Below, piece by piece: positions 13,629 through 61,219 of a stretch of 64,000 nt of DNA. Source of the DNA: Rhizophagus irregularis. Taxonomy: Eukaryota; Glomeromycota; Glomeromycetes; Glomerales; Glomeraceae. The notes below the pieces were generated by a model that was given only the letters and a program-made list of their open reading frames with translations, ran no database searches and was not told where the DNA came from. Numbering within the stretch: position 1 is the first letter of the stretch; the number at the start of each line of letters is the position of its first letter. Both the position numbers and the translations under genes were made by a program. The DNA lies in the NCBI RefSeq assembly GCF_026210795.1, contig NC_089436.1, forward strand, positions 4,402,001 through 4,466,000. Reading direction: 5' to 3'.

Positions 13629-14596
13629 GGTAAAATATTAATAAGTTACAATAATCTTCGTAAATTCTTTTGCGTTAGGACCAAAATGATACAATATGTT
13701 ATTAAATTTGGCAAGAATAATCACAGAGGCGATGCATTAGTGTTGTTTAATGAAAATAAAAAAATATGCGATCACAAAATCGGAAATCAAATATAAATCA
13801 CGTGATCGAAGGCGTATAAAAATAGAAGTTATAATTTCAAAGATTACAAGTTACAACAAATAGAGAAATTCATTAAGGGTATTATTTGTAGAACAATGTT
13901 TAAACATATCAATGGATTACATATTAAAATGGAAACACCTATGTAAAATTAAATGTAAGCTCAAAAGGTAAAAATAGTTATATATGACGATGGTAGTAGA
14001 AAACTGAATACTAAATATACAAATATTAATAAAAATTCGATCAGGAGATTATAATATCTATGAAATTTGGGGAAAATTGAAATAATAAAATGATATGACG
14101 AATCGAAACCAATACAAGAGCTTATCTAACACCAGAATTATTATCATTACAAATGAATCAGGCTACTTTATATTATTATCACCAGTAGCAATAAATGAGA
14201 TATATATTGAAACATGTAAGTAAAATATAGTATACATTTTATTTATTGTTCATGTCTGTAATCAATTTTTTGAATATTAATTACTACTAAGTTTAAAATA
14301 TAATAACAATTTCATGAAAAAAAAAAGAAAAAAAGAAAATAAATATCAAAATAAAAAACAAAAATGGAATATAAACTATTTAATTTTATCCTAAATTTTT
14401 TCTTTGCCTCACATTCACTATTTTGGTCTGTAAAAGAATAATGGAAAATATATTAAATACAAACAAAAAAGGTAAGTTATCATGTTAGCTAAATATTTTC
14501 CATTTTAATAATATTTAATTGTGAGATATCAATTTGTAAAGATTCTAATTAAGGAATTAAAGTTTTATTATAAGTATATTAAAATGTCAATCAGTT
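13629..14596. other. Gene-free gap downstream of the kinase gene
   Basis: A/T-rich, no supported gene. The palindrome TCACGTGA is present at 13798-13805. The final 250 bases are the presumed 3' untranslated region of the kinase gene, which is transcribed toward lower coordinates. Confidence 0.45.
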
Positions 14597-17500
14597 TTAT
14601 TTTATTGTACAAATACCTGAAAATTCCTTGCTTATTATATCATCATTTTGTTCGTAATAATCATAAGAATTTTTTGGTTCAGGAAGATTATTAAAATTGA
14701 GCAATCTACTTGTATAAATAGCTTCTGAATGTGTTTTATATGATAATCCCAAATTAGTTGGTGTGTTTTCGGTTAACAAATTATTATTTTCTTCTTCCGC
14801 TTCTTTAATTTGTCTTTGTAATTCTGTTTGATTATTATTCAGATCATTTAGCCATTTCTTTAAAATTTCATGAGTTTCTTCTGTTGTAGGCCGATTTAAT
14901 GGATTAGCATCTAAACATCTTTTTATTAAACGTACAACTAATTGAGGTACTTTAATATTAAACCTTGGTCTTAATCCTTTACAAATTTTTATTGCTAAAA
15001 GATTATCATGGCTTATATCATTATATGGAGGTAATCCAGAAATTAATTCATACATAATTACACCAAAACTATAAATATCTGCAGCTTTTGTATAAGTTTG
15101 TCCTCGTATAATTTCAGGAGCTACATAAGATAAAACACCATATATGGTATTTTTTGTATTTTCTGATTCTTTGCAATCTGCGGGTTTACATAATCCCATA
15201 TCAGCTATGTGCATGTTAAGTATAGACATTAATATATTACCACTATGTAAATCTTGATGAATAAATTCTTTTTCATGAATACCATCAAGTCCACTCGCAA
15301 TTTCTAGTAAATATTTAATTTTATCATACCAATTTAAATTATTATAATTTGTATCTAAGTAATTTCGTAAACTCCCATTATCTGCATATTTTAAAACCAT
15401 TATATACTCTTCTGTCTCTGGATCTTGAGTCATTCCATAAAATTTAATTATAAAATCTTCAAACTTATCAAATTTGCTATGTATCATAATCTATTATATA
15501 ATAAAAAATATTAATTAAAATTTATAACCCAATTTCAAAATTAAAAAATAATTATATTATACCTCATTCATAAATTTTAATGTAATATTTTTTGAATTAT
15601 TTAAACTTTTTAACGCCACAGGCATATTTTGATATTCTCCACCATCTATCCAAATTGCTCTATATACTTTACCAAATCCACCTTTTGCAATATACTTAAT
15701 ATCATAAAATCTATCATAAGGTATCCATTTTAATGCATTTGATACGTCATTATGAACTGATAATTGGGTATCTTGAATCAATTTATCAATATCATTATTA
15801 CCACTAGTCCAATTTCCAAAATTTTGTTGAAAATGTATTGTATTACATACATTATTACATTCTTTACATTTATTATTCAAAACCATCATGAAATTTTTTG
15901 TTTCTGGATCCTGAGTTATTCCATAAATTTTATGATCTAGTTTAATCTATATAACATAACATTAGTAAATAAAAATTAACAATCTTACTAAAAGATAATA
16001 AATTAATATACCTCATTTATAAATTCTAATGCAATATCATTCAAACTTTTCAGATTTACAATCATATTTTGATTTTCTCTTATCCAATTTTGACCATTAT
16101 TATCCCAATAATTTATGGTTCCATCAATCCAGTTTGCTATATACTTTTCAGCTTTTGTAATACACTTAATATTATAAAACCTATTATAAGATATCCATTC
16201 TAATACATCAGATACATCATTAGTATGAACTGATAACTGAGTAGCTTGAATAAATTTATCAATATCATTCTTGCCACTAGTCCAGTTTCCAAAATTTTGA
16301 TGAAAATGAAGTGCATTACATATTTTATTACATTTTTTACATTTATTATCTAAAACCATCATATAATTCTTTGTCACCGGATTCTGAGTTATTCCATAAG
16401 ATTTATTGATCTACAAATATAGTAGATTATTAAAATTGAACTTTAAATTTTCATAAGTAATAAATTAAAATACCTCATTCATAAATTCTAATGTGGCACT
16501 CTTAAAATTATTTAAGGGATTCAACTCTACAATCATATTTTTATTTTCTCTTTCCCAGTTTTGATTATAATTACTCCAATAACTTAAATTTCCATCAATC
16601 CAGTTTGCTCTACACTTTTCAGATTTTGTAATACATTTAATATTAAAAAATCTATCATAAGGTATCCATTCTAATGCATTTGATACTTCACAATATTTAC
16701 TACCATGAACTGATAACTGAGTATTTTGAATAAATTTATCAATATCATTATTACCACTGGTCCAATTTATAAAATTATATTCAAAATTTATTGCATAGCA
16801 TACATTATTACATTTTTTACATTTATATTTCAAAACCATCATGTAATTTTTTGTCATTGGATCTTGAGTTATTCCATATAATTTATAATCCATTTTAATC
16901 TGTTAAATAATATATTAGTAAAGTGAAAATTTCAAAATTTCTTAAGTAATAAATTAAAATACCTCATTCATAAATTCTAATGTAGCATTCTTAGAATTAT
17001 TTAAAATTTTTAACTCTACAATCATATCTTTATTTTCTCTTTCCCAATTTTGATTATAATTACTCCAACAACTTAAATTTCCATCAATCCAGTTTGCTCT
17101 ATACATTCCAGTTTTTGTAATATATCTAATATTATAAAATCTATCATAAGGTATCCACTCTAATACATCTGATACTTTATTATGAGCTGACAACTGAGTA
17201 TTTTGAATAAATTTATCAATATCATTATTACTACTGGTCCAGTTTCCAAATTTTTGATGAAAATGCGGTGCATTACATATTTTATTGCATTTTTTACATT
17301 TACTATTTAAAACCATCATATAATTTTTTGTTATTGGATTCTGAGTTATTCCATAAGGCTTATTAATCTACAAAAATAAATAGATTAATAAATTTAATAA
17401 TTTCAATATTTTATAAATTAGTAAACTAAAATACCTCATTTCTAAATTCTAATGTGACATTCTTTAAATCATTTAAAGTTTTCAGTTCTACAATTGTATT

Positions 17501-20208
17501 GTTATTTTCTCTTATCCAATTTTGATTATAATCATTCCAATAACTTATGTTACTATCAATCCAGTTTGCTCTATATTTTTCAGTTTTTGTAATACATTTA
17601 ATATTAGAAAATCTATCATAAGGTATCCATTCTAATGCATTTGATACTTCATAAGATTCATGAACAGATAACTGAGTGTTTTGAATAAATTTATCAATAT
17701 CATTATTGCCACTGGTCCAATTTATGAAATTTTGTTGAAAATGTATTGTATTACATACTTTATTACATTTTTTACATCTATATTCCAAAACCATCATATA
17801 ATTTTTTGTCATTAGATCCTGAGTTATTCCATAAGATTTGCTGGTCTACAAATATAGATAGATTAGTAAAATAGCAAATTTCAAAATTTTCATAAGTAAT
17901 AAGTTAAAAATACCTCATTCGTAAATTCAAATGTAATATTATTTAGATTGTTTAAATTTTTTAGTTCTACAATCATATTGTTATTTTTTCTTATCCAATT
18001 TTGATTATTATTACTCCAATAACTTAAATTTCCATCAATCCAGTTTGCTCTATACTTTTCAGTTTTTGCAATAGATTCAATATTATATAATCTATTATAA
18101 GGGATCCATTCTAATACATCTGATACATTATTATGAACTGATAACTGAGTATTTTGAATAAATCGGTCAATATCATTATTGCCACTGGTCCAGTTTCCAA
18201 AATTTTGATGAAAATATAGTGCATTACATACATCATTACATTTTTTACATTTATATTTCAAAACCATCATGTAATTTTTTGTTATTGGATTCTGAGTTAT
18301 TCCACAAAGTTCTTTGATCTACAAATTTGATAGATAAGTAAAATTGCAAATTTTAAAATTTTCATAAAGTAGTAGTAAAAATACCTCATTCTCAAATTCC
18401 AATGTGACATTCTTTAAATCATTTAAAGTTTTCAGTTCTACAACCATATTGTTATTTTTTCTTATCCAATTTTGATTATTATTATTCCAGTAACTTATGT
18501 TACCATCAATCCAGTTTGCTCTATATTTTTCAGTTTTTGTAATACATTTAATATTAGAAAATCTATCATAAGGTATCCACTCTAATGCATCTGATATTTC
18601 ATAATATTTATGAACTGATAGTTGAGTATCTTGTATAAATTTATCAATATCATTATTTCCACTAGTCCAGTTTCCAAAATTTTGTTGAAAATGTATTGCA
18701 TTACATACTTTATTGCATTTTTTACATCTATATTCCAAAACCATCATATAATTTTTTGTCATTAGATCCTGAGTTATTCCATAAGACTTGCTAGTCTACA
18801 AATATAGGTAGATTAGTAAAATAGCAAATTTCAAAATTTTCATAAATAATAAATTAAAAATACCTCATTCGTAAATTCAAATGTAATATTATTTAGATTG
18901 TTTAAAATTTTCAGTTCTACAATCATATTGTTATTTTTTCTTACCCAATTTTGATTATTATGATCCCAGAATTTTATGTTACCACCAATCCAGTTTGCTC
19001 TATACATTCCAGTTATTGCATTATATTTAATATTGTAAAATTTATTATAAGGTATCCACTCTAATGCATCTGATATTTCACGATATTTATGAACTGATAG
19101 TTGAGTATCTTGTATAAACTCATCAATATCATTATTACCACTAGTCCAGTTTCCAAAATTTTGATGAAAATGCAGCGCATTACACATTTTATTACATATT
19201 ATACATTTTCTATTTAAAACCACCATATAATTTTTTGTTATTGGATTCTGAGTTATTCCATAAGGTTCATTGATCTACAGATTTAAGAGATAAGTAAAAT
19301 AGCGAATTTTAAAGTTTTCATAAAGTAATAGTAAAAATACCTCATTCTCAAATTCCAATGTGACATTCTTTAAATTATTTAAAGTTTTCAACTTTACAAT
19401 CATATTTTTGTGTATTCTTTTCCAATTTTGATAATAATTACTCCAACAACTTAAATTTCCATCAATCCAGTTTGCTCTATACATTCCAGTTATTGTATTA
19501 TATTTAATATTATAAAATCTATCATAAGGTATCCACTCTAATACATCTGATACTTTATTATGAGCTGACAACTGAGTATTTTGAATAAATTTATCAATAT
19601 CATTATTGCCACTGGTCCAATTTATGAAATTTTGTTGAAAATGTATTGTATTACATACTTCATTGCATTTTTTACATCTATATTCAAAAACCATCATATA
19701 ATTCTTTGTCATTGGATTCTGAGTTATTCCATGAGGTTTTTTGATCTATAAATTTAATAGATTAGTAAAATTAAAATTTCCAAATTTTCATAAAGTAATA
19801 GTAAAAATACCTCATTCTCAAATTCCAATGCGATATTCTTTAAATCATTTAAAGTTTTCAGTTCTACAATCATATTGTCATTTTTTCTTATCCAATTTTG
19901 ATTATCATCATTCCAGTAACTTATGTTACCATCAATCCAGTTTGCTCTATATTTTTCATTTATTATAATACATTTAATATTAGAAAATCTACCATAAGGT
20001 ATCCATTCTAATGCATTTGGTACTTCACAAGATTTCTGAACAGATAACTGAGTGTTTTGAATAAATTTGTCAATATCATTATTGCCACTGGTCAGTTTTC
20101 AAAATTTTGTTGAAAACGTATTGCCTTACATATTTTATTACATATTTTACATTTATCATTTAATATTTTGTTAACGTACAATGATTTGATTGGTTTTTCT
20201 TTATCCAT
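14597..20208 (-). CDS. Protein kinase with ten tandem N-lobe-like exons (first exon frameshifted)
   Basis: Eleven exons by splice consensus: 20208-19811, 19745-19341, 19274-18864, 18795-18385, 18318-17914, 17845-17435, 17367-16963, 16899-16474, 16410-16012, 15946-15563, 15490-14597. All introns are phase 0 and 63-72 bp. The last exon is a kinase C-lobe: hinge YIMVLKYADNGSL, catalytic loop HQDLHSGNIL (HRD changed to HQD, Asp and Asn kept), DMG in place of DFG, SYVAPEIIRG, then DIYSFGVIMYELISG. A charged tail follows. Exon 10 supplies the glycine loop IAKGGFGKVYRA and the lysine strand VALKSL. The nine exons before it resemble exon 10 but lack the glycine loop. Exon 1 (MDKEKPIKSLYV) lacks one base near 20093, which breaks the frame. 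The intact product would be about 1650 residues. Probably a Ser/Thr or dual-specificity kinase of the lineage-expanded fungal group. Expression is unknown. Confidence 0.7.
15563..20208 (-). repeat. Tandem array of ten exon-intron units, about 475 bp each
   Basis: Each unit is one 384-426 bp exon plus one 63-68 bp intron; spacing between successive exon starts is 464-489 bp. An exon encodes, in order: a kinase hinge strand (YGITQDPMTKNYMMVL), a zinc-finger-like CxxC...C segment, NFGNWTSGNNDIDKFIQ, then EWIPYDRFYNIK. The degraded loop region (ITKTEKYRANWIDG) follows, then a lysine strand (MIVELKTLNN) and the start of helix C (LEFMNE). Exons 4 and 6 resemble each other most, as do exons 3 and 5 (sharing FEFTNE), so a two-unit block was also copied. 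Every exon length is a multiple of three except the broken first one. Confidence 0.9.
20093..20094 (-). other. Single-base deletion in the first exon of the kinase gene
   Basis: All sister units read ACTGGACCAGTGG at this place, while exon 1 reads ACTGACCAGTGG. The exon is 398 bp instead of 399. This shifts the frame after residue 38 and would end translation early, unless it is an assembly error or translation starts in a later exon. Confidence 0.75.
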
Positions 20209-26754: not shown

Positions 26755-28200
26755 ATGTTACGACTCAACGTAGATTGTCTTGTACTTATTTTTGATGAAT
26801 TGCAAGATAAAGAATCTTTATATTCTTGCCTTTTGGTTAATAGAGAATGGTGTAGATTAGTGGTACCTATATTATGGAAAAATTATTCATGGTGTAACGT
26901 TGATGAATTTAATTTTTTCAATACTATACTTTCTTGGTTATCAACATCATCAAAAAAGATTTTATCAGATAATGATATTAAATTACCTTCAACAACACTT
27001 TTAAAACCTCCATTATTTAATTATATTAGTTTTTGTAGATTTCCAGAAACAGAAATCATAAATAGGATGATAGAAATGGTATTAGAGAAACAAAATGATA
27101 ATAATAAGAGAAATATTTTAGAACAAGAAATTTATAAATTATTTATTAGTCAATGTAAAAATGTTAAAGAATTTGTATGGAGAACTTCACAACCATTATC
27201 ATTATTCCCAGGAGCATCAAAATGTTTCTCACAATTATATAGATTAACTATAGATCTTGATTATATAAATTCTAATTCTCTTAATGAGATGGCGAAAATT
27301 TGTAAAGATTTGAATATATTATCTATTAATAATTGTTCACAAGATTTTCCTGGATTAATTTCTTTAATTGATGCTCAAAGAAATTTAAATTTTGTAACCA
27401 TTTGTAATAATAGTAATAATATTAATAATAATAAAAAAAATTGTGAAGAATTAAGCAAAGCATTAACAAGGAAAGGAAATACAATAAATTATCTTCATTT
27501 GGATTCAGTAAATACCATTATTCCACCTTCATTCTTAACATCACTTGTAAATTTAACATGGATATTAGTTTATAATGATGAACAATATGAAGATTTAGAA
27601 AAGATTAAAGAATTTCAAAAATATCTTGCAATTTCTGAATATCCTGATCTTAGATCTCTTAATATTACTGGATTATTATGTTTTAAAGAATTATCAATGT
27701 TAATTGAAAAGACGAAAGGGAATATTTCACGTATATATATTTATACAATAAATATAGCTAATAGAGCTGCAACAAATACAGGAATGTTAATTAAATCAAT
27801 TGCAAAAAATTGTCCAAAAATTAAATTTTTACGTACATATCTTGAACCAGAAGATTTTATTCATGTAAAATCATTATTATTAAATTGTAGAAATTTAGAA
27901 GATATAAGTTTTGATAATATTAATTTTATTATAAATGAAAATGATGATGATGTGGGTGATGAATTATTAAATATTTTAACAAAATTTTCTCCAAAATCTT
28001 TAACTCATATAACAATTAGTGGAAGTTGGAAATATTCTCTTGATTCTTTTGAACGATTTTTTGCAAGTTATAGAAAGAAATCTTTACTTCATTTTTATAT
28101 AGAATATCATTATGATAAATATTATATTACAGAATATCATAGAATGGTTATTAGGAAATATGTTGACGAAGGAGTTATAAAATATCAAGATCATATATAA
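26755..28200 (+). CDS. F-box protein with leucine-rich-like repeats, paralog 1
   Basis: A single exon of 481 codons. The N-terminus LNVDCLVLIFDELQDKESLYS followed by CLLVNREWCRLVVPILWKN is an F-box, the roughly 40-residue module that docks a protein onto Skp1 in SCF ubiquitin ligases. The rest is built of irregular leucine-rich segments (for example NLNILSINNC, FIHVKSLLLNCRNLEDISF) that would select the substrate. It is closely related along its whole length to the protein at 59747-61219; both contain LEQEIYKLF, QPLSLFPGA and a conserved KSLLLNC block. F-box proteins with this layout are strongly expanded in Rhizophagus-type genomes. Likely cytosolic or nuclear. The start is the first ATG after a (TC)n tract. 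The substrate is unknown. Confidence 0.85.
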   Translation: MLRLNVDCLVLIFDELQDKESLYSCLLVNREWCRLVVPILWKNYSWCNVDEFNFFNTILSWLSTSSKKILSDNDIKLPSTTLLKPPLFNYISFCRFPETEIINRMIEMVLEKQNDNNKRNILEQEIYKLFISQCKNVKEFVWRTSQPLSLFPGASKCFSQLYRLTIDLDYINSNSLNEMAKICKDLNILSINNCSQDFPGLISLIDAQRNLNFVTICNNSNNINNNKKNCEELSKALTRKGNTINYLHLDSVNTIIPPSFLTSLVNLTWILVYNDEQYEDLEKIKEFQKYLAISEYPDLRSLNITGLLCFKELSMLIEKTKGNISRIYIYTINIANRAATNTGMLIKSIAKNCPKIKFLRTYLEPEDFIHVKSLLLNCRNLEDISFDNINFIINENDDDVGDELLNILTKFSPKSLTHITISGSWKYSLDSFERFFASYRKKSLLHFYIEYHYDKYYITEYHRMVIRKYVDEGVIKYQDHI

Positions 28201-30772: not shown

Positions 30773-31879
30773 ATGATAAATAATTCCTTTTCTCTTCTCT
30801 CTTTTGTAAAAATAACGAGGAGGCGTATCAAGAAAAGTAAAACTTTACGAAAGTCGGACAATCCAAAAATAAAATCAAATAACAAACTTCAAATAAAAAG
30901 GCATTTTTACGTGGTTTACCCTGTTTATAATCAGTTATCATCAATGACACATCAGAAAAAACATCCTGGTTATACCGTTAATTCAATTACGTTCTATAAT
31001 CCTCCTTATAATTCTCAACAAACGACAGCTGTGAATCAACAACATTTACAACAAGCGCCTTTGAGTTTTCCTTCTCCACAATATGTTTCTTACGCTCCTC
31101 TTATTTCAAGTCCTTCAAGTTCAACAGCAGAAACTTCTATAGCAGCAAATTTATCTCATCAAGTTCATTCTACGATGCAAGCACATCCTCCATCAACTGT
31201 TAATCTTCAACAGTTGTCCCCACAATTTTTTCATCTCTATCCTCAACTTGTAATTCCATCATTTACACCTATTTCAGCAGATGTAAAGGTCGCTAAGGTC
31301 ATTTCATCATCATCAGATGCACCATCTTCAACTAATGTAAAGGTTGCTAAAGTTCAAGTGAAGGACGTTTCATCATCATCAAATACATCATCATCAGCTA
31401 TAAATAACGTTAAAGTCTTTTCATCATCATCAAATACATCATCATCAGCTATAAATAATGTTAAAGTCTTTTCATCATCATCAAATACACTATCTTCAAT
31501 TGACGTAAAAGACGTTAATCTCGTTTTATCTACAGATAAGAAAATCCAGCGATTGGAGAGAAATCGTCTTGCAGCTAGAGAATGTAGAGAACGTAGAAAG
31601 GCATATATTATAAATTTGGAAAATAGAACAAGTAAATTAGAAGATGATAACTTGATTTTAAGATATCAAATTCAAGAATTAACCACTAAATTAGAATTGA
31701 TGGAGTATATAAATCAAGATAATATCCGATTGGAAAATGAAGTTAGGGAATTAAAAAAAAGAATAATGGGACAAGCAAACAAATGTGCTAGAGTCATAAA
31801 TGATGATGTTGTTATTATTGATGATGACTATGACTATGATGATGTTAGAATCGTGAAAACGGAATCAGAGGATCGTTAG
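30773..31879 (+). CDS. bZIP transcription factor
   Basis: A single exon of 368 codons from the first ATG. The preceding context is poor, and MTHQKKHPGY at 30944 may be the real start because the first 57 residues look like translated leader. Residues from about 90 to 250 are low-complexity Ser/Thr/Pro/Gln, as in activation regions. The basic region RLERNRLAARECRERRKAY keeps the bZIP pattern N-x-x-A-A-R-x-C-R and is followed by a leucine zipper with heptad residues (NLENRTSKLEDDNLILRYQI ... LTTKLE). The C-terminus is acidic (DDVVIIDDDYDYDD). bZIP factors bind DNA as dimers in the nucleus. The basic region resembles the ATF/CREB and Atf1-like class, but the subclass is not certain. A 54-bp in-frame tandem repeat lies in the linker (about 31390-31490). 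Confidence 0.88.
   Translation: MINNSFSLLSFVKITRRRIKKSKTLRKSDNPKIKSNNKLQIKRHFYVVYPVYNQLSSMTHQKKHPGYTVNSITFYNPPYNSQQTTAVNQQHLQQAPLSFPSPQYVSYAPLISSPSSSTAETSIAANLSHQVHSTMQAHPPSTVNLQQLSPQFFHLYPQLVIPSFTPISADVKVAKVISSSSDAPSSTNVKVAKVQVKDVSSSSNTSSSAINNVKVFSSSSNTSSSAINNVKVFSSSSNTLSSIDVKDVNLVLSTDKKIQRLERNRLAARECRERRKAYIINLENRTSKLEDDNLILRYQIQELTTKLELMEYINQDNIRLENEVRELKKRIMGQANKCARVINDDVVIIDDDYDYDDVRIVKTESEDR
31390..31495 (+). repeat. In-frame coding repeat of the bZIP linker
   Basis: Two nearly identical 54-bp units, plus a partial third, encode SSSSNTSSSAINNVKVF. The nucleotide identity is high enough that slippage or unequal exchange is recent. Confidence 0.75.
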
Positions 31880-32336: not shown

Positions 32337-33669
32337 TCACAAGACGTTAGGTACTTCCCCAGTTTCGATATATTTCAAAATTTCTTTATCACTAATTTTC
32401 CCATCCCAACCTTTTTTAGATTCTATCATATGATTTTCTATGATTTTAATCAAATTAAGAATCCCTCTATTATATTTCACGTCCACGCTTTTTTCATGTT
32501 GTACATCCTCTCTTTGATTATCTTTACTTCTAATTCTTTCACCTAGTTTAACGATTTCACCTTGTAAAAACTCAACTTCAGTTTTTCTCGCCGATTTAAA
32601 ATCATAAACCATACTAGAATTAAGATTTCGCTTTTTCGTAATCAAAAAATGTTCTAAAGCCAAATCACTCACCCATTCTGGTACATAACCTAAACATTTT
32701 ACCAAATTTTTCATTAATAAATTTTCACTAAAGGTAATTCCATTTAATCTATATACATTTAACCCCTCAAATATACATTTCTTATAAATTTCTCTAAAAT
32801 TATTGTCTTGAAGGTATTCAACATAAGATAATCCACTTAACGCGAATAATGATGTATTTAAATTGATGAGTAATTTAAAATACATCAAATCTTCTATATC
32901 GTAAGAAATTACGCACGGTAATTCATTTTGTTCAAGTATTTTTTGAAAGTGTAAAGTCTCCGGAATAGATTCTAATACTATAGATCCTGAAGATGATGAT
33001 TGTTGGATAAAGTGACATGAGGAATCATGAGTTACGGTCATGTCGTTTAATAAACCCCTTATAATTGTAGTATTTGGTAAAAATTGTTTAATTATTTCAG
33101 CATTATGAAAGCTATTTTGAATGGAAACAATCTATATTAAACGATGAAAGAAAGAAAGAAAGAAAGAAGAAATACGTAAGTATACATATAAAAGAAAAAA
33201 AAAATATAATATGTGAAACGAGAAAATAAATTTCGTTTACCGTAGTTTTACCATCCAAATCCTTTAATTCATTAAATACATCAGAAATTTGATTGGATTT
33301 CAATGTTACGATGACATAATCAGGATTAAATTTAATTAATTCTTTTAAATCAGTTTCATAAAAAATTTCATCCCTTAAAATAACAATTTTTTCTTCGTAT
33401 TCATCTTTTTCGTCTTCAGCCTCAATCTTATCATTTTCTTTTAATAAATAATTATTTTCCTTAACGGTATCAATATCTGTAAAATTATTTAATTTAGTTA
33501 ACGTTAATTTTTTGGATAAATTTAGTTCATCCAAAAGTCTTTGGCGTCCGACACAAAGAATTTTATTGTTATTATATGGATTATTAAATGCGTGATGATT
33601 GTTATGAATTAGATGAGATGCGATATAAAATCCTACATTTCCGCATCCCAATATCGCAATTGCTACCAT
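32337..33669 (-). CDS. 2-dehydropantoate 2-reductase (ketopantoate reductase) family protein
   Basis: Two exons, 33669-33241 and 33131-32337, joined by a phase-0 GT-AG intron of 109 bp that contains a (GAAA)n microsatellite; 407 residues. The N-terminus AIAILGCGNVGFYIASHL is the GxGxxG dinucleotide fold. Exon 2 opens IVSIQNSFHNAEIIKQFLPN, which matches the QNG-containing strand of the family. DLMYFKLLINLNTSLFALSG supplies the conserved Lys and Asn of the ApbA/PanE C-terminal domain. The enzyme reduces 2-dehydropantoate to pantoate with NADPH in pantothenate and coenzyme A synthesis. An acidic insert (EAEDEKDEYEE) lies in the N-terminal domain and the protein is longer than bacterial PanE (about 300 residues). 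Substrate assignment within the family is likely but not proved by motifs. Confidence 0.8.
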
Positions 33670-34476: not shown

Positions 34477-35460
34477 ATGTCGGAAGAACATCTACCGAAT
34501 ATTCCACTCTTCCTATCGGATGCACAAAATTTGGAACAAGAAACATTATCAAATAAATTTACTAAATTAAATCAAGCGGAAATAGAAAGAATCAATCATT
34601 ATAATGAATCATCTAGCCCGTTTAGTGCAAAAACCGCAATTAGTAAAATTTCAATGAAATTCAATAGATATTCAGATATCATACCATTTGATCGTAATCG
34701 TATTAAGTTGCATAGTAAGCGTAGTAGTAATAATACCGATTATATTAATGCAAGTTATATTGAAGCACCTCAAAAATTACGTAGATACATAGGAACTCAA
34801 GGTCCTTTGGAGAATACTATTGAGGATTTTTGGTGTATGGTTTGGGAACAACGTAGTCATGTTGTTGTGATGTTAACTAAAGAAAATGAAAAGGGTAGAG
34901 TTAAATGTACTAAATATTGGCCAGATTTAAATGGTAACCCGATGATTTTTCAAGAATTGGGACTCAAAGTTGAAATGGAATCTGAAGAATTAGAACCAAG
35001 TTCTTCTAGCTTAATTCGTACGTTTCGTTTAGAGAAGTCTAACTCTCATGTAAGCGTTATTAATGCTTCTCAAGGGATCATGGGAGATAATGTCGATATT
35101 AGAAAAGTAACACAATTACATTTTGTTGGATGGCCTGATCATGGTGTACCAGATTCACCTGAAATGATATTAAATTTAATTGGTAAAACAAATGAATTTC
35201 AACAAAAACATCAAAGTGAATTAAATGAGGAGATTGGACCTCCTATTATTCATTGTAGTGCGGGATGTGGTAGAACTGGTACATTTTGTACTATTGATAG
35301 TTGCCTGGCTATGTTACCGCTTCCTGGAGATGATCCTACTGATATAATTGAATATCTTGTGAATTATTTTAGAGAACAACGTAGAACCATGGTTCAAACT
35401 CTTGGACAATTTCAATATTGTTATTTGGCTGTTCTCAGTAAACTTGTTACAAGTAAGTAA
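34477..35460 (+). CDS. Protein tyrosine phosphatase
   Basis: A single exon of 327 residues, the size of a bare catalytic domain. Recognisable in order: FNRYSDIIPFDRNRIKL (substrate-recognition loop region), YINASYIEAP, YIGTQGPLENTIEDFWCMVW, VVVMLTKENEKGRVKCTKYW, the WPD loop GWPDHGVPDS (Asp221), the signature HCSAGCGRTG (Cys260, Arg266) and the Q-loop region TMVQTLGQFQYCYLAV. These are all the catalytic elements of classical phosphotyrosine phosphatases, so the enzyme should be active. Similar fungal enzymes (yeast Ptp1-3, fission yeast Pyp proteins) dephosphorylate MAP kinases and other signalling proteins. No membrane segment or targeting domain is present. The substrate is unknown. Confidence 0.93.
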   Translation: MSEEHLPNIPLFLSDAQNLEQETLSNKFTKLNQAEIERINHYNESSSPFSAKTAISKISMKFNRYSDIIPFDRNRIKLHSKRSSNNTDYINASYIEAPQKLRRYIGTQGPLENTIEDFWCMVWEQRSHVVVMLTKENEKGRVKCTKYWPDLNGNPMIFQELGLKVEMESEELEPSSSSLIRTFRLEKSNSHVSVINASQGIMGDNVDIRKVTQLHFVGWPDHGVPDSPEMILNLIGKTNEFQQKHQSELNEEIGPPIIHCSAGCGRTGTFCTIDSCLAMLPLPGDDPTDIIEYLVNYFREQRRTMVQTLGQFQYCYLAVLSKLVTSK

Positions 35461-44397: not shown

Positions 44398-44600
44398 GGA
44401 GTGTGGGAGTGTCTCTCTGTCTAGGTCTTCGCTTTATTTTAGGCCCTTTTTCTTTTCGTCTCTCTTTAGGTATGTGGGTAGTGTGGGTGTGGGTGTGTGG
44501 GTTGGGAGTGCGTGTGGGTTGGGAGTGTGGGAGTGTGTGTGGGTTTGTGTATGTGGTGTTTCATTTTATTTTTTTTTTCGTCATCTTTTTTTAGGTTTAC
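44398..44600 (+). repeat. Single inverted copy of the G-rich minisatellite unit
   Basis: Contains GTCTAGGTCTTCGCTTTATT, AGGCCCTTTTTCTTTTCGTC, then many GGGTGTGGG/GGGTTGGGAGTG words and ends in TTTCATTTTATTTTTTTTTC. This is the reverse complement of the units at 47740-48650. The run of GGG triplets within about 60 bp could form G-quadruplexes on the plus strand. Confidence 0.8.
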
Positions 44601-47735: not shown

Positions 47736-48650
47736 CGTAAAGAAAGAAGAGAAGACCTAGATGGAGAGAAGATAAACCTAAAAAAAAATGATGACGAAAA
47801 AAAATAAAATGAAAAACCACATAAAAAAACCCACACACACTCCCACACTCCCAACCCACACTCCCACACCCACCCACACTCCCAACACGCACTCCCAACC
47901 CACACTCCCACATACCTAAAGAGAGACGAAAAGAAAAAGGGCCTAAAAGGAGATCTAATAAAGCGAAGACCTAGACAGAGCGAAGGTAAACCTGAAAAAA
48001 GATGACGAAAAAAAAAATAAAATGAAACACCACATACACAAACCCACACACACTCCCACACTCCCAACCCACACTCCCACACCACGCACTCCCAACCCAC
48101 ACTCCCACGCTCCCACACTCCCACACTCCCAATCCACACGCACTCCCAACCCACACACCCACACCCACCCGCACTCCCAACCCACACTCACACTCCCACA
48201 CCCACCCGCATTCCCACACCCACACTCCCACACCCACCCGCACTCCCAACCCACACTACCCACATACCTAAAGAGAGACGTAAAGAAAAAGGGCCTAAAA
48301 GGAGCTCTAATAAAGAGAAGAGAGAAGGTAAACCTAAAAAAAGATGACGAAAAAAAAAAAATTAAACACCACATATACACACAAACCCACACTCCCAACC
48401 CATACTACTCACATACCTAAAGAGAGACGTAAAGAAAAAAGGGCCTAAAAGGAGATCTAATAAAGAGAAGACCTAGACAGAGAGAAGGTAAACCTAAAAA
48501 AAGATGACGAAAAAAAAATGAAACACCACATACACAAACCAACACACACTCCCACACTCCCAACCCACACTACACCCACTCCCAACCCACACTACCCACA
48601 TACCTAAAGAGAGACGAAAAGAAAAAAGGGCCTAAAAGGAGATCTAATAA
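47736..48650 (-). repeat. C-rich compound minisatellite array
   Basis: Four to five copies of a compound unit. Each has AGAGAGACG(T/A)AAAGAAAA, GGGCCTAAAAGGAGATCTAA, TAAAGAGAAGACCTAGACAG, GGTAAACCTAAAAAAAGATG and then a C-rich tract of ACACTCCCAACCC/ACTCCCACACCC words. Unit starts lie near 47919, 48269, 48418 and 48603, so the period varies (about 150-350 bp) with the length of the C-rich tract. The minus strand is G-rich and quadruplex-prone. Long ORFs reading WVWECGLGVRVGWECG-like repeats here are products of the repeat and not genes. Confidence 0.9.
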
Positions 48651-54208: not shown

Positions 54209-55321
54209 AAAGAAAAATATTTTCGAACGGGAAACATACAAATTATTATTAACATCAAAGATTAGACCTCTCTAGCATCAAATTTCGGCGCTTTCCTTTA
54301 TCATCATTAACTGGAGCATCAACGTGCGCGGTGGCATAAAAATGTAAAGAGTTGAGTGCATCCACTTGCGATTATTCTCAAGTATTTCTCAAATTAAATA
54401 ATCCTTTTTAATCGATATTCAAAGAATTTAAACTTCAGATACTGAAATTTCCACTTAAGAAAAAATTTATACAAATCACGTGATATTGATTTTATAGTAT
54501 ATAAAATTGTGAAACGCTCCCCGTGATTTGCGTCAATGGAGATCTGTCAATCTGTACAGCTCTGGATGCCTTTTTATTAAATTTTATATCTTTATATATT
54601 TTTTTCCTTTTTAACGTATGTGGGTTTTTTGCATTTATTTTTATCGTTGAAAATATTTATGCATATAATTTTATTCAATATTATTAAAAATTTAAACAAA
54701 TATGCGGTATATATTGCAGAATGTGATACGAATCTATTTTTGGGATAAACAATGGCCCACTAGCCTATTTTAAGGTATACAATGACTCACTATACCAATT
54801 CAAAATTGTTTAATCGGTCTTTTTGATCACGAATTTTATTGGTTGTTGTAATCCGATCAGATGGAACCACAGGTTGGTTTTAGTTGATCGAAAATTCTCA
54901 ATCGAAACAATTCAAAATCATTATCTTTTACATATTGTCCTTATTAATATTACAATATGAATATTATGTTAATTAACTTAAATTAAAAAAAAATTGATTA
55001 TTAACTACAAATGGACAATGAAAATCACCTTTAAACTCTTTAATTGTTTAGTTTGAATACGTTTTTAATTAAATCTGTAAATTTTCTTAAAAGATTTATT
55101 TACACGAAATATAAATTGTGGAATATTCTTTGAATCATTCTTTGAATTTAAATGTAAAAGAAAGAGCTTTCAAATTTTGTTATAAATATACCCTCAATTC
55201 AACACGACTTAACCACGATCAAAAAATATTTCTTCATAAAAAAATCAATAAGGTTAACAAAAAAACCTTAATTCCACACTCATTTCTTCGTACAAAATCA
55301 AAAGTTAACAGAAAAATCAAA
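54209..55321. other. Gap upstream of the secreted peptide gene
   Basis: TCACGTGA at 54476-54483. No other gene. The frame of the peptide is open upstream to 55118, but those codons lack a secretion signal and are taken as leader. Confidence 0.4.
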
Positions 55322-55633
55322 ATGAAATTCAAGCTTTTCTACCTTTTCTTCATCTTGGCCATTTTTGCTGCTGCTACTTTTGCACTTGACGATCATTTGG
55401 TAAAACGTCAAGAGAAAGATGAAAAAGGAGATGTTGAAGCAAAACTTTTGCCCGCTATTATTATCAATCTTGCTAGAAGATTTGGCGCTTCTCTTGTTGC
55501 AAAGTGTCGCGCTAACTCTTGTCGTGGTAGATGTCCTAATGTACTTTGCAAAGCTCCTACTTTGTCTTGTTGTAACCTGGCATGCAAAATCGGAATTGGT
55601 GCTCGCATTCCTCGTGTCGGCGGTCGGTGTTAA
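55322..55633 (+). CDS. Small secreted cysteine-rich peptide precursor
   Basis: 103 residues from ATG at 55322, chosen because it places a clean signal peptide (MKFKLFYLFFILAIFAAATF) at the N-terminus; an in-frame ATG at 55118 would bury it. After a short acidic piece comes LVKR, a Kex2-type cleavage site. The remaining 70 residues are cationic with eight cysteines (KC, SC, RC, LC, SCC, AC, and a final RC) and a Gly/Arg-rich end. The pattern suggests a disulphide-stabilised extracellular peptide. In mycorrhizal fungi such proteins are typical effector or antimicrobial candidates, but no family was recognised. The spacing does not match a defensin I know. The gene is unspliced and richer in G/C than its flanks. 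Confidence 0.8.
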   Translation: MKFKLFYLFFILAIFAAATFALDDHLVKRQEKDEKGDVEAKLLPAIIINLARRFGASLVAKCRANSCRGRCPNVLCKAPTLSCCNLACKIGIGARIPRVGGRC

Positions 55634-59746: not shown

Positions 59747-61219
59747 ATGAAGGAAATTAATTTTGATTGTTTAATACATATTATTAATGAACTACGAAAT
59801 GATAAGAAAACATTATACACATGTCTTTTGATCAATAAAATCTGGAGTAATATCGTAATACCAATATTATGGAAGTATCATTCATGGAATATTTATAATA
59901 ATGAATCAAAAATAAAACTTTATAATATAATATTATCATTTTTATCATTAAAAACAAGAAATAATTTATTAAATAATGAAATTAAATTACCTTCTTCAAT
60001 ATTAAAATTAAAAACTCCATTATTTAATTATTTAAATTATTGTGAATTTCCTGAACCTGAAGATATTAAAGATATTATTATAAGAATGATTTTAAGTAAT
60101 AAAATTATTATTAATAATGATGATGATAAAAAATATTATTTATTAGAACAAGAAATTTATAAATTATTCGTTAATAATTGTAAAGATATTAAAAATTTAA
60201 TATGGAAAACTTATCAACCTTTATCATTATTTCCTGGAGCTATAAATTGTTTTTCTAAACTTTATAGTTTATCTATTGATCCTGATAATATAAATTCTAA
60301 TTCTATTTATGAAATGTCAAAAATTTGTAAAAATTTAAATATATTATCAATTTATAATTGTTCAAAGGATCATCATGGATTAATTTCTTTGATTGACGTT
60401 CAAAAAAATTTAGAAAAATTAAATATTTATCATAATGATATTAATAAGAAAGGAAATTGTCAAGAATTAAGTAAAGCATTAGCAAGAAAAGGTGATACTA
60501 TAAATGAAATTCATTTAGATTTATTTAATAATATTCCTTCTTCATTTATGATTTCTTTAAATAATTTAAAACGTATTGATATTTTTAATCAAGATATAAG
60601 AGAGGAGGAGATTAATATTAATGAATTTCAACAATATCTTGCAATTTCAAAATTTCCTAAATTGGAATTTTTTAATGTTAAAGGACTTTTATGCTTTAAA
60701 GAATTTTCACTATTAATTAAAGGGACAAGAGGAAATCTTTCACATCTTTTAATTGATATTAAAACGGATGAATTTATTATTAAAAATACTGGAATGTTAA
60801 TTAATGAAATTTCTAATAATTGTCCAAATATTAAAATATTATATACTTTTATTGAATCAAAAGATTTTATTCATATAAAATCTTTATTATTAAATTGTAA
60901 AAAATTACAAGATATAAGATTTTATAATTTAAATAATTTTATTGAAGATTATTATCATAATGATAATATAGGTGATGAATTATTAAATATTTTATCAAAT
61001 AATAATAATGATTTATTTTCTTTAAATCATCTTTTTATTAGTGAAGATTGGGGTTATTCTATTGATGCTCTTGAAAGATTTTTTCAAAGTTTTAAAGAAA
61101 AAAATTTGATTTCTTTTAATATTATACATAATAGAAATTTTTATATTACTGATGATCATAAAGAAATTATTAGAAAATATATTAATGAAGGTGTAATCCG
61201 TTATTCCAATTATATGTAA
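59747..61219 (+). CDS. F-box protein with leucine-rich-like repeats, paralog 2
   Basis: A single exon of 490 codons. The N-terminal F-box reads INFDCLIHIINELRNDKKTL then CLLINKIWSNIVIPILWKY, the Skp1-docking module of SCF ubiquitin ligases. The body has the same order of conserved blocks as the protein at 26755-28200: LEQEIYKLF, QPLSLFPGAINCFSKLY, ICKNLNILSIYNC, CFKEFSLLIK, FIHIKSLLLNCKKLQDI and the C-terminal IRKYINEGVI. The two are clearly paralogs about 33 kb apart, in the same orientation, with Asn-rich insertions differing between them. The codons are extremely A/T-rich. The substrate is unknown. Confidence 0.85.
   Translation: MKEINFDCLIHIINELRNDKKTLYTCLLINKIWSNIVIPILWKYHSWNIYNNESKIKLYNIILSFLSLKTRNNLLNNEIKLPSSILKLKTPLFNYLNYCEFPEPEDIKDIIIRMILSNKIIINNDDDKKYYLLEQEIYKLFVNNCKDIKNLIWKTYQPLSLFPGAINCFSKLYSLSIDPDNINSNSIYEMSKICKNLNILSIYNCSKDHHGLISLIDVQKNLEKLNIYHNDINKKGNCQELSKALARKGDTINEIHLDLFNNIPSSFMISLNNLKRIDIFNQDIREEEININEFQQYLAISKFPKLEFFNVKGLLCFKEFSLLIKGTRGNLSHLLIDIKTDEFIIKNTGMLINEISNNCPNIKILYTFIESKDFIHIKSLLLNCKKLQDIRFYNLNNFIEDYYHNDNIGDELLNILSNNNNDLFSLNHLFISEDWGYSIDALERFFQSFKEKNLISFNIIHNRNFYITDDHKEIIRKYINEGVIRYSNYM

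Follow-up and report, generated by a model that had tools for sequence, protein, structure and literature searches.

A Rhizophagus irregularis gene with an array of kinase N-lobe exons ahead of a single catalytic exon

A 64,000-nucleotide stretch of the Rhizophagus irregularis genome (NC_089436.1, positions 4,402,001 to 4,466,000; hereafter the window) carries, on the minus strand from 20208 to 14489, one gene of twelve exons: the units E1–E10, the catalytic E11 and a short E12 at the end. We propose that the gene plan specifies one polypeptide, in which a chain of kinase N-lobe modules is followed by one C-terminal kinase, and we consider this probable, with the reservations given below. The predicted chain-of-N-lobes architecture is well supported because the exon phases, deposited gene models of the same plan, two further arrays in the genome and a structure prediction all point to it. 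An original prediction, made from the letters of the window, had described a string of nine degenerate N-lobes ahead of one kinase domain. The string of units stood, but eight intact units (E2–E9) and a frameshifted E1 precede E10, and the deposited model of the locus starts inside the array.

The tandem units fill 20208–15563 on the minus strand with a spacing of 470–489 bp, each consisting of an exon and a short intron, and the array had a tandem-repeat score of 5325. The predicted array, its period of about 475 bp and the symmetric exons ahead of one catalytic exon were all recovered. Introns 1–9, between the unit exons, were 63–68 nt long, and all ten introns from E1 to E11 had GT..AG ends. 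These ten introns began with GTATTTT, GTATATT or GTATAAT and ended in TAG in nine cases and CAG in one, with TACTAAT ahead of the acceptor in five and TACTTAT in two. P0121, a model deposited for DAOM197198, matched E10–E11 at 100% over 99% of the query, making that strain the most likely source of the window; the kinase of P0121, encoded by E10–E11, matched PF07714 (E 1.7e-49). According to P0121, the gene runs on past 14597: E11 ends at 14617 and is followed by a 72-nt intron and E12 (14544–14489), an exon that had not been noted before.

A unit comprises about 135 amino acids and runs, in exon order, from a beta4–beta5 stretch (YGITQ..TKNYMMVL) through C-x2-C-x3-C, a helical part (FQQNF..WTSGN..ID.FIQ.TQL), EWIPY, beta1, beta2, an insertion (WIDG..W..QNW.R, largely missing from E10) and beta3 with VxLK to helix C, at whose glutamate (NE) the exon ends and the intron begins. 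The assignment of the strands, the lysine and the glutamate is one that we take from predicted models and general kinase anatomy. Exon and fold boundaries do not coincide: each exon opens with beta4–beta5 of the preceding N-lobe and closes on the helix-C glutamate codon, so that an N-lobe is complete only after neighbouring exons have been joined. The hinge-like strand, Cys segment and N-lobe up to helix C that had been noted for each exon are thus all present, but the opening strands belong to the N-lobe before. All junctions are equivalent, and the E10/E11 intron interrupts the true kinase domain just where the unit introns interrupt their N-lobes. Structure prediction, proposed beforehand as a check, returned a kinase N-lobe (beta1-beta2-beta3-helixC-beta4-beta5) for the upstream units, which are N-lobes by prediction only. 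The first Foldseek match of the N-lobe chain was a JAK dimer, with a poor overall superposition. No Pfam match up to E 1 was obtained for the middle unit E5, and a PDB sequence search with one module as query gave nothing up to E 1.

E10 and E11 together carry the residues expected of an active kinase (GGFGKVY, VALK, FMNE, HQD and DMG), with HQD in place of HRD as the catalytic motif, and would form the kinase of the chain. E2–E9 have no GGFG and no C-lobe and do not qualify as active kinases. The single C-lobe of the gene is in E11, which sets the gene apart from tandem kinases and pseudokinases, defined by at least two complete two-lobed domains. The glycine loop was confined to the last copy of the window array, as had been predicted.

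The R. irregularis assembly (146.7 Mb, 32 contigs) was searched for further copies. A degenerate DNA pattern for the beta5-Cys unit junction was found at 181 places, and the reversed control gave 0. A protein search of the genome gave 4134 candidates, and 149 of the best-scoring 150 were free of stops, a proportion biased to intact copies because the best-scoring candidates were taken. These 150 formed 53 clusters, 37 of them with two or more units; 29 clusters were on contig C2 and 8 on C26. Arrays on C25 (L040, C25:2490001-2499500) and C23 (L041, C23:1542001-1551000) had 12 and 11 unit exons, respectively, each with a catalytic exon, and were open; the arrays themselves span C25:2490702-2497381 and about C23:1543866-1550129. 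In both, the first exon has an ATG in frame and every unit exon ends in E before GT, and these larger arrays would suit experimental work better than the window copy. GGFG was present in the last unit only of the C23 array (1/11).

Arrays of the same plan also occur in deposited models of other species, for which a search had been suggested. The joined product of the window gene matched 328 database proteins, the best 120 including models of 833–2579 amino acids. The models listed came from R. irregularis, R. clarus, R. diaphanus and Glomus cerebriforme, and such models were named merely 'kinase-like', 'hypothetical' or after yeast kinases. Among the matches listed, identity to deposited models reached 70% for a single exon. 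The largest number of units among 282 proteins was 17, in P0086, which gave no HRD-type motif; because the unit profile derives from the nine units of the window array itself, distant units are under-counted in these figures.

In 114 of the 282 proteins the last unit lay 40–140 residues before an HRD-type motif, and in these the glycine loop was present in 107 of 114 last units and 5 of 490 upstream units. Requiring GG-F/Y/C/S-G/S/A alone gave 109/114 and 5/490, and the last glycine alone (F/Y/C-G before xxY/H/F) gave 83/114 and 109/490. In a set of 240 proteins, the 130 that had at least two units together with an HRD-type motif carried the loop in 105 of 130 last units and 13 of 557 other units. 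Columns were then compared between 461 upstream and 105 last units, from the 105 of 240 proteins selected by the same 40–140 residue rule. Conservation of Cys, WTSGN, EWIPY and WxDG was similar in both groups. The VAIK alanine was present in 14% of upstream and 96% of last units, one loop glycine column in 28% and 74%, and the beta3 lysine in 85% and 99%. The ATP-contact positions are relaxed in upstream units. The loop was replaced differently in different arrays; the AEK type of the window array recurs in R. clarus P0017, its closest relative. Because the replacements differ, the loss probably occurred repeatedly.

Loss of the loop from nearly all upstream units also suits an exon graveyard, in which these units are decaying duplicates skipped by splicing and the protein is made from E10-E11-E12 only. 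E1 is frameshifted: one base is absent compared to the other copies (a deletion near 20092–20097), a stop follows after 38 codons, and the remainder is open in the next frame, so that eight rather than nine degenerate units are intact. The pairwise dN/dS among E2–E9 had a median of 0.535 (range 0.20–0.80), which suggests just moderate constraint, and P0121 is limited to part of E7/E8 through E12. However, even P0121 joins a partial unit, E9 and E10. E2–E10 are open, with lengths of 384–426 nt that are multiples of three in 9/9 cases, and no stops were observed, whereas 2000 neutral simulations gave a mean of 25.6 and a minimum of 9. The simulations used the observed spectrum and the 389 substitutions by which the nine units depart from their consensus, and their power is somewhat overstated because units were taken as independent. 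Judged from the sequence, selection acts against stops in E2–E10. Intron lengths add nothing, since these are also multiples of three in 5/10 cases. The ten GT..AG introns, the wholly open C25 and C23 arrays, and the about equal conservation of Cys, WTSGN, EWIPY and WxDG in upstream and last units also argue against a graveyard, which we consider unlikely.

Chains of N-lobes could also be made without the kinase, by intron retention or from separate promoters, and act in trans on kinases. An HRD-type motif was missing in 29 of 159 proteins with two or more units, P0206 stops two codons after helix C, and P0155 has no kinase. Several of the 29 retain DMG/APE, which indicates a kinase whose HRD has diverged, some of the rest are incomplete models, and the last-unit loop rule ties the arrays to a downstream kinase; we consider kinase-free chains unlikely. 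P0155, P0206, P0004 and P0080 are predicted N-lobe chains without a kinase C-lobe, and could be either partial models or real kinase-free products.

All intact unit exons are in phase 0 and their ends correspond, so that any of them could join E11 in frame, as expected if they were mutually exclusive exons giving kinase variants with different N-lobes. This is improbable, given that upstream units rarely have the loop or the VAIK alanine and lack the residues that would complete a kinase domain, and that units are chained in the 114 deposited models. The linker between helix C and beta4 is 5–8 residues in the exons that follow upstream units and 18 in E11, and the short linker fits unit-to-unit joining. 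A mis-assembly of repeats, for which the differing E7/E8 chimera of P0121 from another assembly might be cited, is very hard to credit when the copies differ by 8–20% at the DNA level, which artefactual duplication does not produce, and the same plan recurs in other arrays and species.

Several observations weigh against one long polypeptide, or against its generality. P0121 was the sole deposited model found for the locus and starts inside the array, in a chimeric E7/E8 stretch that differs from the window and reflects a shorter allele or else a collapse in the assembly. With the E1 frameshift, this start means that the window copy may be 5'-damaged and that a full-length product is perhaps not made from this locus. 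Top identity was 64% for the joined query and 62% for E2–E6 (best 120 matches each), and no deposited model was near identical over E2–E7 among the matches listed. The deposited models are automatic predictions that could have joined neighbouring genes. The loop rule has exceptions, with 7/114 last units lacking the loop and 5/490 upstream units having it; when a partial loop was allowed the counts were 111/114 and 30/490, and in the C25 array the first unit has GGFG as well as the last (2/12). P0155, whose predicted structure has a pTM of 0.49, is a relative and not the window product. The role given below to the upstream modules is one that we infer.

A tree of the units was built with few columns for its rows, and 17 of its 70 inner branches were left open. 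Upstream units mostly clustered by array (window, P0010, P0027 and P0002), with the exceptions that C25 and C23 units were interleaved and P0009 units were split; the last unit of P0113 clustered with its own array. On the evidence of these sequences, amplification took place largely array by array. The last unit of the window (W10) paired with that of R. clarus P0017 (support 99/79), which is 77% identical to the window in E10 and 76% in E11. P0017 has four full units by profile and five loops, compared to ten units in the window, so the number of units has changed between species. Within the window, E1, E4 and E6 are 91–92% alike and E2 and E7 90%, as unequal exchange of single or multiple units would produce. 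Mean identity within arrays, last units left out, was 71.9% for the window and 73.2% and 82.8% for two others, all below the threshold of about 85% for high internal conservation with nearly identical units. Fungal repeats of that kind, such as HET-E type WD40 repeats, show array-specific amplification and changes in unit number. The window family likewise amplifies by array, but its units are half-kinase modules and less alike.

The unit exon may date from the loss of the C-lobe coding part of a kinase gene and the fusion of that gene, directly behind beta5, with the Cys segment of the adjacent gene copy. Such an exon, being symmetric (0-0), could then have multiplied by unequal crossing over with the frame unbroken. 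Two kinase regions in one chain were seen in Diversispora epigaea P0096 and G. cerebriforme P0137, and such two-kinase models are a possible starting point for the fused exon. D. epigaea proteins (n=23) were mostly single-module or two-whole-kinase forms. P0234 from this species was considered as a two-unit intermediate with both loops intact but is given no weight, since its two copies are letter-identical and could stem from a duplication that is recent or an artefact.

In the proposed chain, each module would consist of the Cys-rich/WTSGN helical part and beta1-beta2-beta3-helixC, with beta4-beta5 supplied by the exon that follows, and the last module would serve as the N-lobe of the one complete kinase at the end of the chain. 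No longer needed for catalysis, the upstream modules would have lost ATP-contact residues but persisted as folded modules for binding, which bring partners to the single kinase or restrain it, with module number setting valency or specificity. We give about equal weight to the upstream modules choosing partners for the kinase or keeping it inactive and to their doing neither. The helical Cys/WTSGN part might perhaps shield the surface that a C-lobe would occupy.

JAK resembles the window gene in having a degenerate kinase part (JH2) N-terminal to the active kinase (JH1). JH2 is a single, complete two-lobed domain, unlike the N-lobe array. The plant tandem kinases Yr15/WTK1 and Lr9/WTK6-vWA have duplicated kinase parts with key residues lost in one, and a decoy or recognition role has been proposed for them in the parts available of PMC6170490 and PMC10260399. 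The binding-module idea resembles the logic of these integrated decoys, but the plant proteins, from unrelated organisms, are described as having kinase and pseudokinase domains, whereas the window family repeats N-lobes only, up to 17, with one exon each.

The kinase of E10–E11 is of the tyrosine-kinase-like PF07714 type expanded in Glomeromycotina (Rhizophagus), and the Cys/WTSGN N-terminal part is common to the window gene and single-module relatives in that expansion. From the portions available, a kinase domain is present in about 28% of the annotated genes found in R. irregularis alone (PMC3886924), PF07714 is the commonest motif of expanded genes (PMC6123716), kinase genes are high-copy and more methylated (PMC8647823), and R. 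irregularis has 2,533 kinases (PMC10234402). These portions give counts, locations and methylation and do not mention repeated N-lobe exons. No description of a repeated N-lobe exon array was found in the available open literature on R. irregularis or its kinases, a scope that mostly leaves subscription papers outside. The belief that no described protein has this architecture therefore held as far as descriptions go, but the architecture is not unique, being family-wide in public gene models, where the array design is already present and undescribed.

Table 1. Exons and selected introns of the N-lobe array gene (window coordinates)
Feature	Position	Strand	Length (nt)	Description
E1	19811..20208	-	398	First unit exon, ATG at 20208, frameshifted
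E2	19341..19745	-	405	Degenerate N-lobe unit exon, phase 0-0, open
E3	18864..19274	-	411	Degenerate N-lobe unit exon, phase 0-0, open
E4	18385..18795	-	411	Degenerate N-lobe unit exon, phase 0-0, open
E5	17914..18318	-	405	Degenerate N-lobe unit exon, phase 0-0, open
E6	17435..17845	-	411	Degenerate N-lobe unit exon, phase 0-0, open
E7	16963..17367	-	405	Degenerate N-lobe unit exon, phase 0-0, open
E8	16474..16899	-	426	Degenerate N-lobe unit exon, phase 0-0, open
E9	16012..16410	-	399	Degenerate N-lobe unit exon, phase 0-0, open; whole in P0121
E10	15563..15946	-	384	Last unit exon; GGFG loop, VALK lysine and helix-C Glu kept
Intron 10 (E10/E11)	15491..15562	-	72	Just after helix-C glutamate codon, splits kinase domain
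E11	14617..15490	-		Catalytic exon: beta4 to kinase C-lobe end, HQD and DMG motifs, C-terminal tail
E11/E12 intron	14545..14616	-	72	GT..AG
E12	14489..14544	-		Short last coding exon with stop, tail ESLQIDISQLNIIKMENI; from deposited model P0121

Elsewhere in the window, the plus strand carries an open protein-tyrosine phosphatase gene (34477-35460; PF00102, 1.6e-71), a bZIP transcription factor gene (30773-31879; PF00170) with an internal 51-bp tandem repeat at 31368-31489, and two similar-looking open reading frames (ORFs) of 481 and 490 amino acids (26755-28200 and 59747-61219), the former with an F-box-like Pfam match. A small Cys-rich protein (55118-55633, plus strand) had no Pfam match and, by eye, a signal-peptide-like stretch, and is a candidate secreted protein. 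On the minus strand, neighbouring ORFs matched the N- and C-terminal parts of ketopantoate reductase (33112-33669 and 32337-33041) and are probably one gene with an intron. Minisatellites of GTGTGGG / CCCACACTCC were found at 44475-44545 and 47834-48600.

The thousands of kinase genes in arbuscular mycorrhizal fungi have no known use, and the family-wide pattern is of more interest than the window copy. The pattern of many N-lobes with, as a rule, only the last fit for ATP suggests a regulatory design rather than random duplication, and it offers a testable entry into this kinase expansion. A bolder proposal, which we hold to be doubtful, is that the family is a new class of repeat protein made from half an enzyme, in which up to 17 ATP-blind N-lobes form a modular recognition array, with dozens of such arrays per genome acting as diversifying sensors wired to a kinase. 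One symmetric exon would then encode each module, unit number and sequence would turn over quickly, and the sensors might serve, for example, partner or self/non-self recognition. The family-wide pattern, for its part, would also show that half a domain, cut by an intron at the helix-C glutamate, can multiply as an independent folding and evolutionary unit.

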